Made by a program: the position numbers and the translations under genes. This document shows positions 8,041-52,853 of a stretch of DNA of 64,000 bases, in pieces. A model generated the notes under the pieces. That model was not told the DNA's origin. It did not search any database and was given only the letters and a program-made list of their open reading frames with translations. Each line of letters begins with the position of its first letter. Position 1 is the stretch's first letter. The DNA is from Rhizophagus irregularis (taxonomy: Eukaryota; Glomeromycota; Glomeromycetes; Glomerales; Glomeraceae), in contig NC_089452.1 of the NCBI RefSeq assembly GCF_026210795.1, forward strand, positions 1,736,001 to 1,800,000, in the 5' to 3' direction.

Positions 8041-10859
8041 GTGACCCTTTATATTATAATAAAATCTATCGCAACTTTGATGCTTTTTTTTAAAATAGGC
8101 GGTTAATTAATGAATTTCTATATTACCATGAATTAATTAATGAATCTTATATTACCATGAGAACTAACCGAACGGTTAATAAAAATGAATTCAACTATTT
8201 CGATAAAAAAAATACGTACATACAAAAAAAGATCAGCGGCACGTCTTCTTCACATAATTCACCTTGATGTACTCGCTGCAATAATTCCTCATGCATTTGT
8301 TGTGCATTCATTTTTTGGCGCGGATTTGCCGTTCCTGTATGAAACATTATTTCTAATAATCGTTTGACTTCTGCGGTCATTCTTTTTGCTGGCTCACGCG
8401 ACTTAGTTTTCTCATTTTCTTTTAAAGCCCAACCCGAGAAAAAAAACCTATGACTATAAAATCAAATTTCAATAAAAATTTCCATAATTATCAATACACA
8501 ACAACATGATAATACCTTTGTGAGCTATATTGAACAGGTTCATGATTAACGCCTCCTTGGTTATTCATATCAACTATCGTTGTATCCTGACAATATTATT
8601 GATATTAGGACAGAATAGGCAATTATATCACTATTATATGGGATATTTATACATACTAAAGAATGGTGCAAATTAGTAGATAAGGTTAGTATTTTACAAC
8701 CAAAAATAATATCATTTTACCGGGTTTATCTACAATTGGCATAGTCCATAGTTTACTTGGTTCTGTATGTTGAGTATAACTTGGATCTGGCCTTTGAAAT
8801 TTTCGTTTTTTCATAACTTTCTCTATTTTATCAGGTGAATATTCCTTCCAGTTACCAATCACTGGTAGAGCACGAGCATATAAATATATCCATTTTTTTC
8901 GTCCTCTTGGGGCCAAGTCCACTCTTGAAAATTTGAAATTCCCGTTATGGTGCCTAATTTTTCTTTATCTGATTTTAAAATTATACATTATAAACACTAT
9001 TTACTAAACAATAAATGTATCAAATATAGGTAATAAACCCCATACCTGTATTTCGATCTGGATTCAAATTTGCCACATGTGTGCCTGCAATATCCCGAAT
9101 AGCATTCTCAATATCTTCTCCATTCTCCACCTCAAATCCCAGTTTAATATACCGTTTTATTGCTTGTGCAATCTGTACGTTTATTTATTTAGTAACAAAT
9201 TTTATTTGTAAAAACTAATAATGCATGTATTAATCACTCACTTGGGCGTGATGGGAATCAATTGCCGTTTTGGCCTCCACTGCCTCCAAAAAGAGCCATC
9301 GTCGTGGAATAACATCATACCATTCTTTCAAGTGACCTATAATAAGCATCAATTCTGTACAATGATAATGCATTCCATTATCAGACAAAATTGATATCCA
9401 TTTAGGTTTTGGTTCAAGATTTTCAAGATGTATAGAGGAGGCAGTGAACCACGCATCCTGATGCGTATCATCTGACCAATGATCAAACACCTGGATATTT
9501 AGACAATTCTTTTCTATATCCTTCGTGTATACTTAGGCTCCAACCCCGTTTACCGAAAAAATCCTTTTTTGTTTCTCTTGAACTTGTAGGTAAAATTTTC
9601 ATTTTATAATCTACTATTAATACTGCACCATCAGCATCAAGTTCTTCGAGATTGGTTCTTACATAAATATTAAGGTAAGTTTTACACGCATGATGACCCA
9701 TCCATGAAATAAGTTTTTCTTGATAATTAACAAGTGTATCATTAAATTCAGGACCTAATTGTTCTTTTAATTGTTCAAAAAAACTAAACAAATTTTCGCA
9801 ATTACTACAAGTATTGGGATGATCAATATTACAGTCTCCAAATGCATGTCGAATACAATGACTGATGCATGTATCATGTAGAGCCATGCCATCTGTTGTA
9901 ATAGTAAGTGATTTGCAATATTGATGATGGATGTAATGCCGTAAATTTTGTGATTTTTCCAGTAAATGCTTCTGTAATAAAGATTAATTATTAGGATTTT
10001 TTTGAAAATCAATTTTTATTATTTATTTTACATCAATTTTACTTACTCGCGTTGATTCATCAGTTATGTGTGCTGCAATTAGTGTATTAATGTCACTAAA
10101 CACTAGGTATCCATTTTCATTACATGTTGAACATAATCCACCAAGATTTTCTTGATATACAAAATGACCACCTTTTAGTTTTGTCATGAAAGAAGTTCTT
10201 CGCATGCCATTAGGATATTGTTCTGAAAATCGTTCCCATAGAGCCCTTTTTGTGATCTTGCAAATATAAAACTGGTTGCCCAGTAGAGGTATTTGTCTTA
10301 TATGAACTCATATTTACAATTTTTTTATTCGTAAAAAATTGTTCAAACTGATCTAATATTTCTGATGTAAATCTTTTTTGGTGAATAATAGGCTTTATTA
10401 ATACCGGAGCTCCATATCCATTAATACGTCCATGCTTGCGTGCTTCTGAAATTGTATGTCTTCCAACCTACATTGTGAAAATGAATTAGGTTTGAAATTT
10501 TTTTACATCATTTATAATAGTCAAAATTAGTACTTACGCCTAAATTGTTTTGTAATTCATCATAAGTGAAATCTTCTGCAATTATAGACAATATTTGATG
10601 ATTTCCATCATATGTTCTCTTATTATTTGATAGAGCTCGCTCAAAACAAGTCCAAAAAGTACGAGTCGCATTAGGCATATGAATTGGAATGGAGGTAAGT
10701 AATCCTATTTTGAATAAATCTGCTAAGGTTTCTCATTCGGTAGTTGGATCAGGTGATTTAGTCCACATTTCAATCTGATATATTTATGTTGAATTAGTTA
10801 TTTATATAGAAATACGAAAAACATGACACGAGTTCACCTCCGATCCATCATGTGACCAT

Positions 10860-11277
10860 TAGAGGTTGGAACCGGTCCAAAAAGTCTTAACCGGTTAATT
10901 AACCGGTTAAAACTCCATCCTAGTCAGAATTAAAATTCGGCCAGGATTAGCATCAAATATATTTTTAATCCCGGCCAAAATTAGGCCAGACCAAAACTCT
11001 AACTATCGAAACGAAACTCTAGCTGAAAGACGAAATTCAGGCCAAAATTGTCTGGCCGGCACTATGAATTTCCGCCCGCATTATGAATTTTATATAACAC
11101 AAAAAATTCCTTACCTGGTGGCTAAACTTTTATCTGAAGTCCCGTGATTTATAATTCTGGCCGGCACTGTAAATTTGGCCAGAATTACGCATTTTAACCG
11201 GTTAACAAATGTTTTAACCGGTTAACCGTTTTAACCGGTTAATTAACTGGTTAAGCTTAACCGGTTCCAACCTCTAG
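10860..11277. mobile_element. hAT-type MITE, TAGAGGTTGGAACC ends (copy 1)
   Basis: 418 bp bounded by TAGAGGTTGGAACCG and its reverse complement. The flanks are GTGACCAT (10852-10859) and GTGACCAC (11278-11285), an 8-bp target duplication with one mismatch, as expected for hAT-type elements. Several TTAACCGGTTAA words lie just inside both ends. The interior carries GGCCAGAATTA-type phrases and no coding frame. It is non-autonomous and inserted into the transposase pseudogene at its WSHD codons. Confidence 0.85.
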
Positions 11278-11706
11278 TGACCACAGAGTTATATTAGTAC
11301 ATCCAGATGCATGCAGCATTGATTTCCATGCTCTGAATTCACGCTCATCAAACTTGTAATTGTGTGGTATAGTGGCTTTAAATTAGATTTCAAATCAATT
11401 ATTGTAACATTAGATTCCGCCCAACTAATAAAAAATTGGTGCCGGTTGATATTTGCCAATGTTCTTCTTTTCAAGTGATAATAATCAAAAAGGATTTGCA
11501 TAATAGATTGATCTTGCCAATCTTGAAGCTTGCAAGTAGGAACTCAGTGCTTTTTTATGAGTTGTTGAATTATTGAATTATCTAACCCAAAAAGTTGAGT
11601 TCTATTGTAATTTTGAATTAGCCCAGTTTTTCGCCAAACATCATCTGGACTGGCGCCTATAACCCTTTTTTTTAATTGAGAATCCTGGTAAATTTCCACA
11701 ATACAG

Positions 11707-12552
11707 CAGTGTTTGTCAAATGACTTGAAATGAACAAATGACTCAAATGACAAGTCATTTGTCATTTGTCATTTGCAACTCAAATGACCTGTCATTTAAG
11801 TCATTTGAAAAATATTAAATATTCTGAGAATTCTTATTAATTATTTTATTTATTTTAATTAAGAAAACAAAAATATTAAAACAAAATTGGTTTAATATAT
11901 ATAATCAAAAAAGTTTCAATAGTAGTAAAGATTTTTTGATCACGTGATTTGTCATTATTTTTACAGGTTATTATTTGTTAATAATATTATTATAGACAGG
12001 ATTATTTCACTTATAATTATTTCACTAATGATCATTTTATCCATACAGATAAAAGTTAATTAATTATGCAATAAAATATTTAATTGTAACACATGTAGTG
12101 GATCCCATATATATAATTGTTGTCTTTATTTAATCATAAGATGGCCATAACATTTATTTATGCATATAATTATATAATAAAATTATATATAATAAATAAC
12201 ATATCAGATATTATTATCACTTTAATAATTATGGTTGTATTATTTATTATTTTCAGATTACAGTAAAAAATAAATAATTTTGTGAAATTGATTCTGTTTG
12301 TGATTATTTCGATTACGTCCTTCCTTTTTTATACATCACGTGATTATAAATTGTCCAATAATCTTTAAATATTTTAATGACAAATGACCAAATGACAAAG
12401 GACGCAAATGACATTCAAATGATACCCAATCATTTGGCATTTGTCATTTCACGAATAATTCAAATGCCAAATGCCAAATGATGGGGTGTCATTTGACCAA
12501 ATGACTCCTAATCCGAAAAATGGTCAAATGACCAGGTCATTTCCAAACACTG
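11707..12552. mobile_element. hAT-type MITE, CAGTGTTTG ends (copy 1)
   Basis: 846 bp starting CAGTGTTTGTCAAATGAC and ending in the inverted CAAACACTG. It is flanked by a perfect 8-bp duplication CAATACAG (11699-11706 and 12553-12560). The CAGTG start and 8-bp duplication are typical of hAT superfamily elements. Arrays of CAAATGAC and its complement GTCATTTG fill both subterminal regions. There is no coding frame, so it would need transposase from elsewhere. A second copy in the opposite orientation is at 32054-32890. Confidence 0.92.
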
Positions 12553-13231
12553 CAATACAGTCTTCATTTTCAATTTTGGATACCAAAATTCCTTGTTTCT
12601 TATCAAATACGTGAATAATAGAAGCTTCGTAACCTGATATCCAACCCTTATTTAAAGAATAACCAATAGCATATAAAAAAATTTTATATTTTCCAACCGT
12701 ACATATTACAGGAAAAAATTCAATATCATTTTTGAGTATTTCTAAAATATTTTCGTTATTCCAGCCCATAATTGCATGACCTGAATATCGCGTAAAACTT
12801 TTGAATATATCCTTATATACTATTACTACTGCTTTTGTTGGACTAGTTTCAAACACTTCTATCTCACCACTTTTGCAATGATATTCTGGAAGATTTCCTG
12901 CCCCCTTTTTAACTGTTAAAAAGAAGTCATTTCCATTTAAAAACACTTTAACTTGCTGATTTAAATGAATCGGAAAGTTTGCAACATTGTTTTCAGTTGA
13001 AAAGTCCCACCAAAATCGAGAATATGGCCCATAATGAAGTTCATTTACAAGTAAACCACTATTTTCAAGAAATACAGGCAATAAACGAGGTTTTTTAATC
13101 ATATTATAAATGGTTAGGTAATAAATAGTTTGAGATGTAAAAATGGACTTTATTTTATTATAATTCTTATCCCCGAATTTATTATTTATTTTCACGTGTT
13201 TAGTGCCGATCTCTGGTGGATCACGTCTTAA

Positions 13232-48517: not shown

Positions 48518-48521
48518 TTAA

Positions 48522-48690
48522 GATCCGATTCACATATGATCTACAGAAAATTACTATATATATCCGGGGAAAACAAACAGTTAAATTAATAAGATTTGCA
48601 TATCGTCATATATTATAAAAACTGTAGATAATAATGTTGTAGCACCAATGAACATGTGATAAGGCTTAAATGCAAAGAATAATATCAAAA
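48522..48690 (+). repeat. left terminal inverted repeat
   Basis: Opens GATCCGATTCACATATGATC and TACAGAAAATTACTA directly after TTAA. The inner part holds CCGGGGAA, ATAAAAACTGTAGAT and TTGTAGCACCAATG, each with a counterpart in the right repeat. The outer 35 bp are the best conserved part and are the likely transposase-binding site. Confidence 0.85.
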
Positions 48691-48743
48691 AAAAAATTTT
48701 ATATAAACCAACTCGTAAAAAACGCTAAAATCTGAAGCCAACC

Positions 48744-51700
48744 ATGTCTCAAACGTATGTTATTCTAGTAGAACTTGGCTCGCTTATAGAAAATCTTCAC
48801 TATGGACCTTATTCACGCTACTGGTGGGAAATTCTAAGTATTCCTGACGCAAATACCCAACTCAGATTTCCAATTAGAGCAGGCCAAAAAACTAATGCTT
48901 GTTTGAATGGACGTGACTTTTATATAATAGTACAGATTTCCAGTTCTAATCAAATGTTACCTGAGTATTTTTGTCAAAGTGGTGAGTTTTGGGTCATAGA
49001 AACAAGTGCAACTAAGGCAGTTTCTGAAGTTTATCAAAATATTTTTCAAAAAAAAACTCGTTATTCTGGTTCTATTATTATGGGATGGGATAATAAAAAT
49101 ATAATAGATGTTCTTTCATCTAATATTGATTTTTGTCCATTTTCATGTAAACTTGGTGATTATGAAATATTTATTTATGGATTGGGTTCATCTACACGTT
49201 CAGATTGGAATCAAGCAGGCAATGGTTACAAGTCATCAATTATTCACACATATAAGAAACGTGCAGCTATATTTGTATCTGAAATTAAAGATGATAAATG
49301 TTACATTTATATTTATCAAGATTTTAAAATTCAAAAAACATTTGTAGGAACTACCCCAGATGACGTCTGGAAAAATTCGGGTTATATTCAAAAATTTTCA
49401 GGAAAAGAATTATTTGGGTTGGAAGATCAAATTACGTTACAAAAATTAAATAAGCTACGTATTCCACAATGCGCTCCTCATGAATGGAATAATTTCAAAC
49501 TAATGAAAAAATTATATGAATATCATCTTCAGCATCAAACTTTTGCTAAAATTGAATGGTATAAATTATTTGTTAGATGGGATCAAAATGAGTGTAATGT
49601 AATAGAATTAAATTCAGAATTAAAATTATTATACCCACCAGAGCATCAATTTTCTGATCGTGAACTGGGTGCATGGTTATCTATGCTTCGTGCTGCAGGA
49701 TGCTCTGATATTACTCCTTGGTCCCATGATAAATCTGGTAAATCTGAGGTATGATTGAGTTGTATATTGAAAAATTATAAACACGAATAAAAAATAACTT
49801 TTAATTCTATAGTATCAACTTTGGACTAAATCACGAAATCCAATACAAGAAAAACAGATATTTACTACTCTTTACAAGATGGGATTTCTTTCCAGCAATC
49901 CTTCAAATTCTACAGAAACTTTTTGGTCTTGTTTTCGACAAGCATTGGATGATAATAAAAAAACCAGAGATGGAAAACGGCGTATTTTATCAATTATTGC
50001 CAATGATTTTACCTATGAAGAATTAGAATATAATTTAGGGGTAAGAATATGTTTTTGTAATTAGCATAATATTGGCAGTAATTTTGAACGCAATAACTAA
50101 TTATCTAATATTACAGGTAGCATCTTATACCGTTCTTGAATCAAGAAGACATGCTGTATTGAATGGTTTTGGTGCTCCACCTATTGAAAAGCCAAAATTT
50201 CATCGTCTAAAGTTTAAAATAGAGCAAATTGATCAGTTTGATAGTTTTTTCATGAGAAAGGATATTGTCAACATGAGCTCTTACCGAACTCATTCAAAAT
50301 CAGGATTACCTATAATGTATTTACAGGACCATAAGCAGGCTCTTTGGGAGAAATTTTCTGAAGAGTATCCAAATGGAATGCGTCGTACAGCATTTATGAC
50401 ACGTTTACAAGGTAGTAGATTTGTTTATCAAGATAATTTAAGTGGTCTTTGCTCAGAATGCAATGAATGTGGATATGAGAGCTTTGCGTCTATTAATACC
50501 ATTATTGCTACCCATGTAGAAGATGAATCTTTGAAGGTATTATATTCAAGAATTTTTTGTATTCAGAAATTTGATATTGAAATTAATCATATTCTATAAT
50601 GCAGGAGGAGTTAACTCGAAAATTGAATATTTTGAGAAGATATATGAGGCGTGAATACATAAAGGATTTGAAAATTACCTCATCAGGAATTCCGGCACAT
50701 AAATCTTGCATATGCCATTGCCTTAGCCATTCCTTTGGAATTTGTAATCTTCAGCATTTTGAAATATGTAACGATTGTGTAGAATTATTCCAATTTTTTG
50801 ATCTAATAAAAAATCAGGTAGATGAAGAATTACATGAATTATTAGATGATTATTTGAAAAAATTAATTTCATGGTTAGGACATCATGCACGAAAGTTTTA
50901 TTTAAATACTCACGTTCAGGTTAATCTTGATGAGTTAGATGAAGATGGAGCAGTTATTATAGTGGACTATAAAATGAGGATACTTCCGCACACTGCAAGG
51001 GAAACAAAATCTCAATTCTTTGGTAAAAGGGGTTGGACTCTACATTCATCACTAGTATATACAAAAGATATTACAAATAACAAGCTTGATATACAAGTAT
51101 ATGACCATTGGAGTGACGATACTGGCCAAGATGCCTGGTTTACAGCATCTTCTCTTCATACCGTGTTTGAAAATCTTGATCCAAAGCCAAAATGGATAAC
51201 AATAATGTCGGACAATGGGCCTCACTATCATTGTACAGAATTGATGCTGATAATAGGTCAATGGAAAGAATGGTATGATATTGTTCCTCGAAAATGGATC
51301 TTTTTGGAAGCTGGTGAGGCTAAAACACTGATAGATTCCCATCACGCTCAAGTAGTTATTATATTGCTTACTTCATTTATTATAAATTCTATTATTATTT
51401 TGTTTACCTTTGATTTATTCCTATTAGATATCACAAGCAATAAAACGTCATGTCAAACTGGGTTGTACAATTGAATCTGGTGATGATATAGAGGCAGCAA
51501 TTCATGATATTGCAGGAACAAAAGTTGCCAACTTGCTGCCAAATCGTAATCAAGGTATTTCAATAATTGAAGAAATTATGTACAATATTTTTGTTTGTCA
51601 GTAATAATATTTATTTCGTATAGGAAAAGAAAAAATTGGTACAATAGCTGGAATTAAAAGTCTACATGAATGGACGTGGCCAGCTCAAGGAGAGGATACA

Positions 51701-52491
51701 GGATTCGTATGTGCTAGGATTTTGCCTGGAATTGGAGAATGGAAGAAATGGTCTCCAGCTCAAATAAAAAAAATTCGAAAGCAGAGAAAAAATGAAAAGC
51801 CCAACCCAGAATATTCTACTCATACAGAACCATCTAAAAAATGGACGTTACCTATTGTTGTCAGTAAAGGTATGATAGTTTTTTGCATTTATTTCAAATT
51901 CCCCATGAAACTAATAATATTTCGTGATTCAGATGATTCTGTCACCAATGATGAATTGTTGGAATTGGTATGAACAATTTAAAATTGAAAAAAATTTTTT
52001 TTTCACAAAAATAAAAACTACTCAATATATAGGATCTTTTGAATTCAAGTTTGAATAGTATGGATATTACAAATGTAATAGGAAGTTCAAAAAAGCAAAT
52101 GTAAGATATTTTATTATAATAAAAGCTCATAAATCAATTATACTAACAATTGGTTTTGTTTGACAACAATAGTCACGATGTATTTGTATCTGGGTGGGCC
52201 CTAAAATCTAACAAGAATTACAAGCGGGAATCATGGAAGCGAATATCTAAAAGTGCGAAACATTTATTAGAAAATATGTTTCATACCGGAACAGCAAATC
52301 CAAATAACAAATTTTCAGCTCAACAAATGTATGAGGAACTTGTGCGACGTGTTCAACTTGGAGAATTAGACGAAAATGACGTACCTAAAATCTCTACTAT
52401 TCAGAATTGGATTACTGGTTTCTCCCGAAAATGGAAAGAAATCATGGCAATACGTGAATTAGAGGCAAGAGAAAATGAAATAATTGTATAA
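48744..52491 (+). CDS. DDE-type transposase, nine exons
   Basis: Exons: 48744-49748, 49813-50040, 50117-50536, 50605-51351, 51428-51554, 51624-51869, 51933-51967, 52033-52100 and 52173-52491. All introns are short (62-76 bp) GT-AG introns, and all phases agree, giving about 1064 residues. The N-terminal 335 residues have LHYGPYSRYWWEI and SIIMGWDNKNI. Exon 3 has a Cys cluster GLCSECNECGY. Exon 4 has C-I-x-H-C...FGxCNxxH....CxxC, then the candidate catalytic blocks VIIVDYKMRI (D), TIMSDNGPHYH (D) and FLEAGEAKTLIDSHHA (E/D). The C-terminal exon has a helical HTGTANPNNKFSAQQMYEEL and WITGFSRKWK module, possibly DNA-binding. It presumably cuts and pastes its own element. Triad assignment is inference from motif spacing. 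Confidence 0.8.
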
Positions 52492-52699
52492 AACAAACAG
52501 TTCTAAACGTATAAAAATGTGTAAAATATAGTTCTAATTGTTTTTATTTGTTAATTTATAAAAAATAATCATAGTGCGTGTTTTAAACATCGCAAATACA
52601 TATATATATATTTCCGCCAAATCTGACGCTGCCTCAAAGTAAAGTTTTTAAGAAATAAATAAAACTCCCAATTTTTTTTGATCATTATTATCTTTAGCA

Positions 52700-52849
52700 T
52701 TTAAGGTTTCATCACGTGAATTTTGGTGCTACAGCGTGATCATCTGCGGTTTTTATAATCTGTAATATTTTGCCAATTTTGCCATTTTTATAATAACCGT
52801 TCCCCGAATTTAAATAGTAATTTTCTGTAGTTCATACGCGAATCGGATC
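52700..52849 (+). repeat. right terminal inverted repeat
   Basis: Complement of the left repeat. It ends GAATCGGATC before TTAA. Relative to the left end, three of the outer 35 positions differ, and the inner part carries extra sequence around GCCAATTTTGCCATTT. An imperfect match in an otherwise intact element suggests it is not freshly inserted. Confidence 0.85.
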
Positions 52850-52853
52850 TTAA

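Follow-up and report, generated by a model that had tools for sequence, protein, structure and literature searches.

A TTAA-flanked DNA transposon of unplaced family with an apparently intact nine-exon transposase gene in Rhizophagus irregularis

A 64,000-bp stretch of the genome of Rhizophagus irregularis (contig NC_089452.1, positions 1,736,001 to 1,800,000; referred to here, at its full length, as the window) contains an element that we interpret, with a probability of roughly 0.88, as a class II DNA transposon that is autonomous and moves by cut-and-paste. Its single spliced gene would encode a transposase in which a Cys/His region and a DDD/E core of RNase-H-like type are combined with a helix-turn-helix (HTH) at the C-terminus. 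The element is apparently intact and comes from a large family with recent mobility; as a TTAA-specific, cut-and-paste transposon it is ordinary in mechanism, and it is unplaced with regard to family. An initial annotation of this DNA had proposed an apparently intact TTAA-flanked transposon with DDE-like blocks in its transposase, and the ends, the terminal inverted repeats (TIRs), the open frame, and the conserved blocks described below all support that proposal.

Direct reading of the sequence places the element at positions 48522-52849 of the window (4,328 bp) with TTAA on both sides, so that the edges given in the initial annotation are correct, and inverted repeats are found at both termini (Table 1), as expected of class II elements with TIRs. 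The outer 35 bp match at 32 of 35 positions, as had been claimed, compared to a best value of 22 among TTAA-bounded 35-bp inverted repeats in 60 block-shuffles of the region; additional inverted similarity extends from the left TIR to about position 48700. The ends also coincide with those of other copies, which had been set as a check on the element; the two closest copies, L012 and L013 (99.1% and 95.8% identical to the window copy in the coding exons, respectively), have the same two ends as the window copy and lie in unrelated flanks.

Table 1. Positions, in window coordinates, of the element's features and of a decayed relative located elsewhere in the window
Feature	Position	Strand	Remarks
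Left TTAA target-site duplication	48518..48521	.	Directly adjoins 48522; duplication nature from three related insertions
Left terminal inverted repeat	48522..48571	+	32/35 outer bp match; similarity about 50 bp
Exon 1	48744..49748	+	Residues 1-335, N-terminal domain; in order in 13/14 fetched long copies (not L025)
Exon 2	49813..50040	+	Spliced frame, copies
Exon 3	50117..50536	+	Conserved C523/C526 (50450-50461), the first of the Cys pairs
Exon 4	50605..51351	+	Residues 552-800; His/Cys cluster and presumed catalytic core
D672 codon	50965-50967	+	Exon 4, presumed core
D754 codon	51211-51213	+	Exon 4, presumed core
E786 codon	51307-51309	+	Exon 4, presumed core
D795 codon	51334-51336	+	Exon 4, presumed core
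Exon 5	51428..51554	+	Presumed last core helix continues here
Exon 6	51624..51869	+	Contains E858 (13/14 rows)
Exon 7	51933..51967	+	Spliced frame
Exon 8	52033..52100	+	Spliced frame
Exon 9 with stop	52173..52491	+	Homeodomain-like module at the C-terminus; three modelled helices between 52249 and 52485; may bind the element ends
Right terminal inverted repeat	52800..52849	-	Pair of left terminal inverted repeat
Right TTAA target-site duplication	52850..52853	.	Directly adjoins 52849
Decayed relative of transposase	8195..13075	-	Core frame broken; outside element

Nine exons between positions 48744 and 52491 join into 1064 codons plus a stop codon with no internal stop, and the eight introns of 63 to 76 bp all have GT-AG borders, which bears out the gene model of the initial annotation (nine exons, eight short introns, and about 1064 codons without a lesion) as far as the open frame is concerned; the gene is apparently spliced in this way, as judged from the open frame and from conservation among copies. 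In tblastn comparisons, the order of N-terminal domain, core, and C-terminal module was found with similar break points in 13 of the 14 fetched long copies, with the N-terminal block missing from L025. The N-terminal domain encoded by exon 1 did not match any Pfam family.

Conservation was assessed over 14 rows, i.e., the window copy and L013-L025; L012 was left out of both the alignment (A1) and the conservation rows because of its in-frame stops. Eight acidic residues of the core (D672, E684, D718, D723, D727, D754, E786, and D795) are invariant in all 14 rows, as are H583, C586, C590, C598, and C609 of the His/Cys cluster. C523 and C526 show no substitution in any of the rows (at least 11) that extend over them, and E858 is shared by 13 of the 14 rows. 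The string D795-S-H-H798 (DxxH), located after the second D, is likewise invariant. The blocks VDYKM, SDNGPHYH, and EAGEAKTLID as well as the Cys/His cluster, on which the initial annotation had based its description of the protein, are present and conserved among copies; the third of these blocks was described there as DDE-like, and while EAGEAKTLID is indeed present, the catalytic residue is ambiguous between E786 and D795. The most likely triad appears to be D672-D754-D795. D672 and D754 are situated in hydrophobic stretches of strand-like character or at the end of such stretches. E786 and E858 were also considered as the third catalytic residue, but D795 was preferred, being preceded by a strand-like stretch and standing at the start of a helix-like one. 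As the structure model of the core was poor (mean pLDDT 43.6), the RNase-H-like fold is presumed from motif order. The Cys/His region is probably zinc-binding.

For the C-terminal exon, a model built from window sequences only gave three helices (pLDDT 67.8). A Foldseek search with this model returned no match at an E-value of 0.001 or better (best 0.33, TnsB), and in a VIA comparison, in which no Z-score of 8 or more was obtained, TnsB came closest among the solved chains (Z 7.5), followed by the paired domain of Pax-6 (6.7) and numerous homeodomains (about 5-6). The likeness to TnsB of V-K CAST concerns this module only, where TnsB has, and the present transposase may have, a helical DNA-binding region (84 residues, rmsd 5.8); with 10% identity and a Z-score below 8, it may represent only a common arrangement. 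It is possible, from the model, that the C-terminal module is a homeodomain-like HTH that binds the element ends.

The genome searched for relatives comprises 146.7 Mb in 32 contigs. Searches with the exon-4 protein yielded 154 matches (172 candidates, 150 scored), and the 150 matches listed, once merged, fall at 123 places on 30 contigs, so that the family has exon-4 matches at 123 places or more. In total, 26 copies were examined, consisting of the window copy, 14 long copies (L012-L025), and 11 short stretches (L026-L036); in exon 4, the 13 long copies other than L012 are 51-95% identical to the window copy. An inverted-repeat search that did not assume TTAA found both ends in 11 of the 14 long and 8 of the 11 short copies; no TIR pair was found in the long copies L014, L017, and L025, and no end pair in the short stretches L033, L035, and L036, of which the latter two, as fetched, are too short to contain both ends of their matches. 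Block by block, the decayed relative that lies elsewhere in the window (Table 1) shares about 37-64% identity with the intact transposase.

TTAA is located directly outside both ends in all 20 elements for which two ends were found, as judged by a script that looked near ends already located by the inverted-repeat search, while the terminal bases differ among copies (GATCCG-like, GACGTGATCC, TTCGTGATCC, and others). To identify empty sites, the joined flanks were compared with the genome (3093 of 3268 joined letters queried, best 40 of 1457 candidates scored). Among the matches listed, joins were crossed for L020, a 4605-bp relative (at least 28 matches, 93-95% identity, continuing for 31 bases beyond the join and thereby into the adjacent query segment), and for the short copy L029 (at least 12 matches, 99%). 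With 400-base flanks, the L020 join was crossed in six of six fetched paralogous loci, with a single TTAA at the junction; five of these loci match over about 804 bp at 92.9-99.6% and one over 536 bp at 99.8%. For L029, an empty site with one TTAA was found in two of two loci, and for L026, two intact units of the tandem array in which it lies carry one TTAA at the insertion point. Since the empty sites of L020, L029, and L026 carry a single TTAA, the target duplication is exactly TTAA, i.e., a true 4-bp target-site duplication (TSD) of the fixed length that characterizes class II elements, as seen on three related insertions. Weak alignments across the joins designated W, L016, L020, L021, and L034 in the fetched loci or the window (65-79% identity) were rejected as empty sites. 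With regard to genomic context, L020 sits in a high-copy repeat, its joined site being matched at the places counted above, of which L037-L042 were fetched, and the flanks of L026 form a tandem array with a unit of roughly 80 bp and internal inverted similarity.

The initial annotation had also suggested that the element is still potentially mobile, and this is borne out for the wider family; for the window copy itself, by contrast, no empty site was found among the matches listed in the joined-flank search. A 1-kb non-autonomous family, whose similarity to the window element over its right half is about 75%, is represented in the genome by 13 matches of nearly full length, several of them identical. 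Among the eight short copies compared (L026-L032 and L034), the flanks of which share no cross-similarity, L027, L029, and L030, each on a different contig, show no differences over about 1008 bp, and this family has therefore been recently mobile. These short copies are, however, members of a sister lineage and not of the window copy's own; the end of the short family was found at 14 places in the genome with up to 3 mismatches, and a genome search for that end found no autonomous partner. For the window copy and L013, dN/dS is 0.24 over the coding sequence and 0.105 for exon 4, which points to selection on the transposase. Both of the nearest copies are damaged, L012 by four in-frame stops and L013 by gaps in the coding exons. 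L012 (G000:C24:2101783-2106110) is on the same contig as the window copy, about 317 kb away, and its four stops occur among only 28 coding differences, an excess over the expectation under random drift that perhaps reflects a mutational process.

Searches of reference libraries yielded no placement. The full-length 1064-aa protein matched 0 Pfam families at E-values up to 10; searches of the PDB by sequence and by profile found no credible match, and IMG/VR and GTDB yielded no relative at the sensitivities used. The profile scan also covered window exons 1, 3, and 9 and a set of five related C-terminal modules, of which one lies in the window and four in fetched loci. Scattered unrelated Pfam and PDB matches at E-values of 0.0056 to 10 were not used; these included zf-C2HE (0.0056), zf-AD (0.079), and rve (0.12), each in one of 14 members, as well as a PDB integrase chain (0.23). 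The names of the weak zf-C2HE and zf-AD matches agree with the reading of the Cys/His region given above. A viral match (L045; 21 residues, 62% identity, antisense to a 741-codon frame) was rejected as chance; upon retesting, the tblastn alignment covered 29 residues (48%) and the score of the exon-4 profile was 19 bits over 27 positions, with nothing else matching and with an E-value (4e-6) computed from 112 short frames of a contig chosen for that very motif. Six bacterial stretches with a motif match gave no profile hit at E-values up to 10. Because the libraries searched are poor in eukaryotic transposases, the absence of matches says little. Animal genomes presumably encode similar unnamed proteins, and a single motif search aimed at these found nothing. 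The element was not found described in the accessible text of openly licensed literature on Sola, TTAA superfamilies, and R. irregularis transposons, which is weak evidence for novelty.

An element that is dead, or that has been domesticated as a host gene, would accord with the damage in the two closest copies; we consider this very improbable, however, given the exact ends with TTAA, the large number of places with exon-4 matches, and the identical short copies at unrelated sites. As for family, the initial annotation had seen neither a piggyBac nor a Kolobok signature, and the features tested agree. Like piggyBac, the element has a TTAA TSD and three proposed acidic residues, but the negative Pfam result includes the piggyBac transposase domain (PF13843). 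Membership in the C/DxxH group as a divergent Kolobok-like element, with E858 as the last catalytic residue, would fit the TTAA TSD, the invariant DxxH string after the second D, the retention of E858 in 13 of 14 rows, and the ends of the window copy (5'-GA..TC-3', i.e., RR..YY). However, Kolobok termini follow the rule 5'-RR and YY-3' (PMC9587614), which the window copy and all eight short copies keep and which eight of 12 long elements break (RR..YY ends in only four; seven begin with TT and one with GT); moreover, no E downstream of DxxH is invariant, and E858 lies in a Trp/Pro-rich, non-helical-looking stretch and is absent from one row. A Kolobok affiliation is thus improbable.

In naming piggyBac and Kolobok as the families with TTAA specificity, the initial annotation had overlooked Sola, of which Sola3 is a third TTAA family. 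The element may represent a fungal branch of Sola, probably Sola3, in which case the superfamily is already named and only the branch is new; we regard this as close to an even proposition, although somewhat short of one. According to the description available in PMC10741241, Sola elements are mostly 2-9 kb in length and have a DDD transposase, 4-bp TSDs, and variable termini, and the 4-bp TTAA duplication and the D..D..D pattern found here resemble that description; D672, D754, and D795 are present in 14 of 14 rows, yet so is E786, and the poor core model described above applies here as well. A study of R. irregularis transposable elements used Sola-1, Sola-2, and Sola-3 profiles, reported new Sola-2 families, and mentioned Sola-1; its main text mentions 'Sola' at five places, where Sola-3 figures solely as the name of a profile (PMC11075540). 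The comparison with Sola was by description, and the element here differs from that description in being fungal, with a nine-exon gene and a homeodomain-like C-terminus. Alternatively, and as a somewhat more tentative proposal, the element could belong to a separate, as yet unnamed superfamily-level lineage of TTAA transposons, in line with the new or poorly described superfamily that the initial annotation had considered; the lack of credible matches in Pfam, the PDB, IMG/VR, and GTDB at the sensitivities used, the 335-aa N-terminal region, the Cys/His cluster, the homeodomain-like C-terminus, and termini mostly against the Kolobok rule are all consistent with this proposal, whereas the composition of the searched libraries and the similar animal proteins that presumably exist weigh against it.

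Whichever family it belongs to, we propose that this TTAA-specific transposon would move by a conventional mechanism, in which the HTH, and perhaps the N-terminal domain too, would bind the inverted repeats and the core would excise the element and join its 3' ends to TTAA with a 4-bp stagger, so that every insertion would be flanked by TTAA; the window copy may itself be active, and short copies whose ends are of this type could have been moved in trans. PiggyBac excision leaves no scar, and TTAA elements are therefore useful as tools. Much of the repeat content of R. irregularis has been described as unclassifiable in two studies (PMC8647823; PMC11075540). It is possible, and we suggest it with reservation, that a superfamily-level TTAA-specific lineage, its transposase combining an RNase-H-like DDD core with a Cys/His cluster and a homeodomain-like module for binding the ends, occupies more than 100 places in this genome, is still moving, and forms part of these unclassified repeats. 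This TTAA family, whose ends and target are exact and which includes an intact gene as well as identical non-autonomous copies at several loci, may represent a clear and testable piece of the unclassified repeats of R. irregularis.
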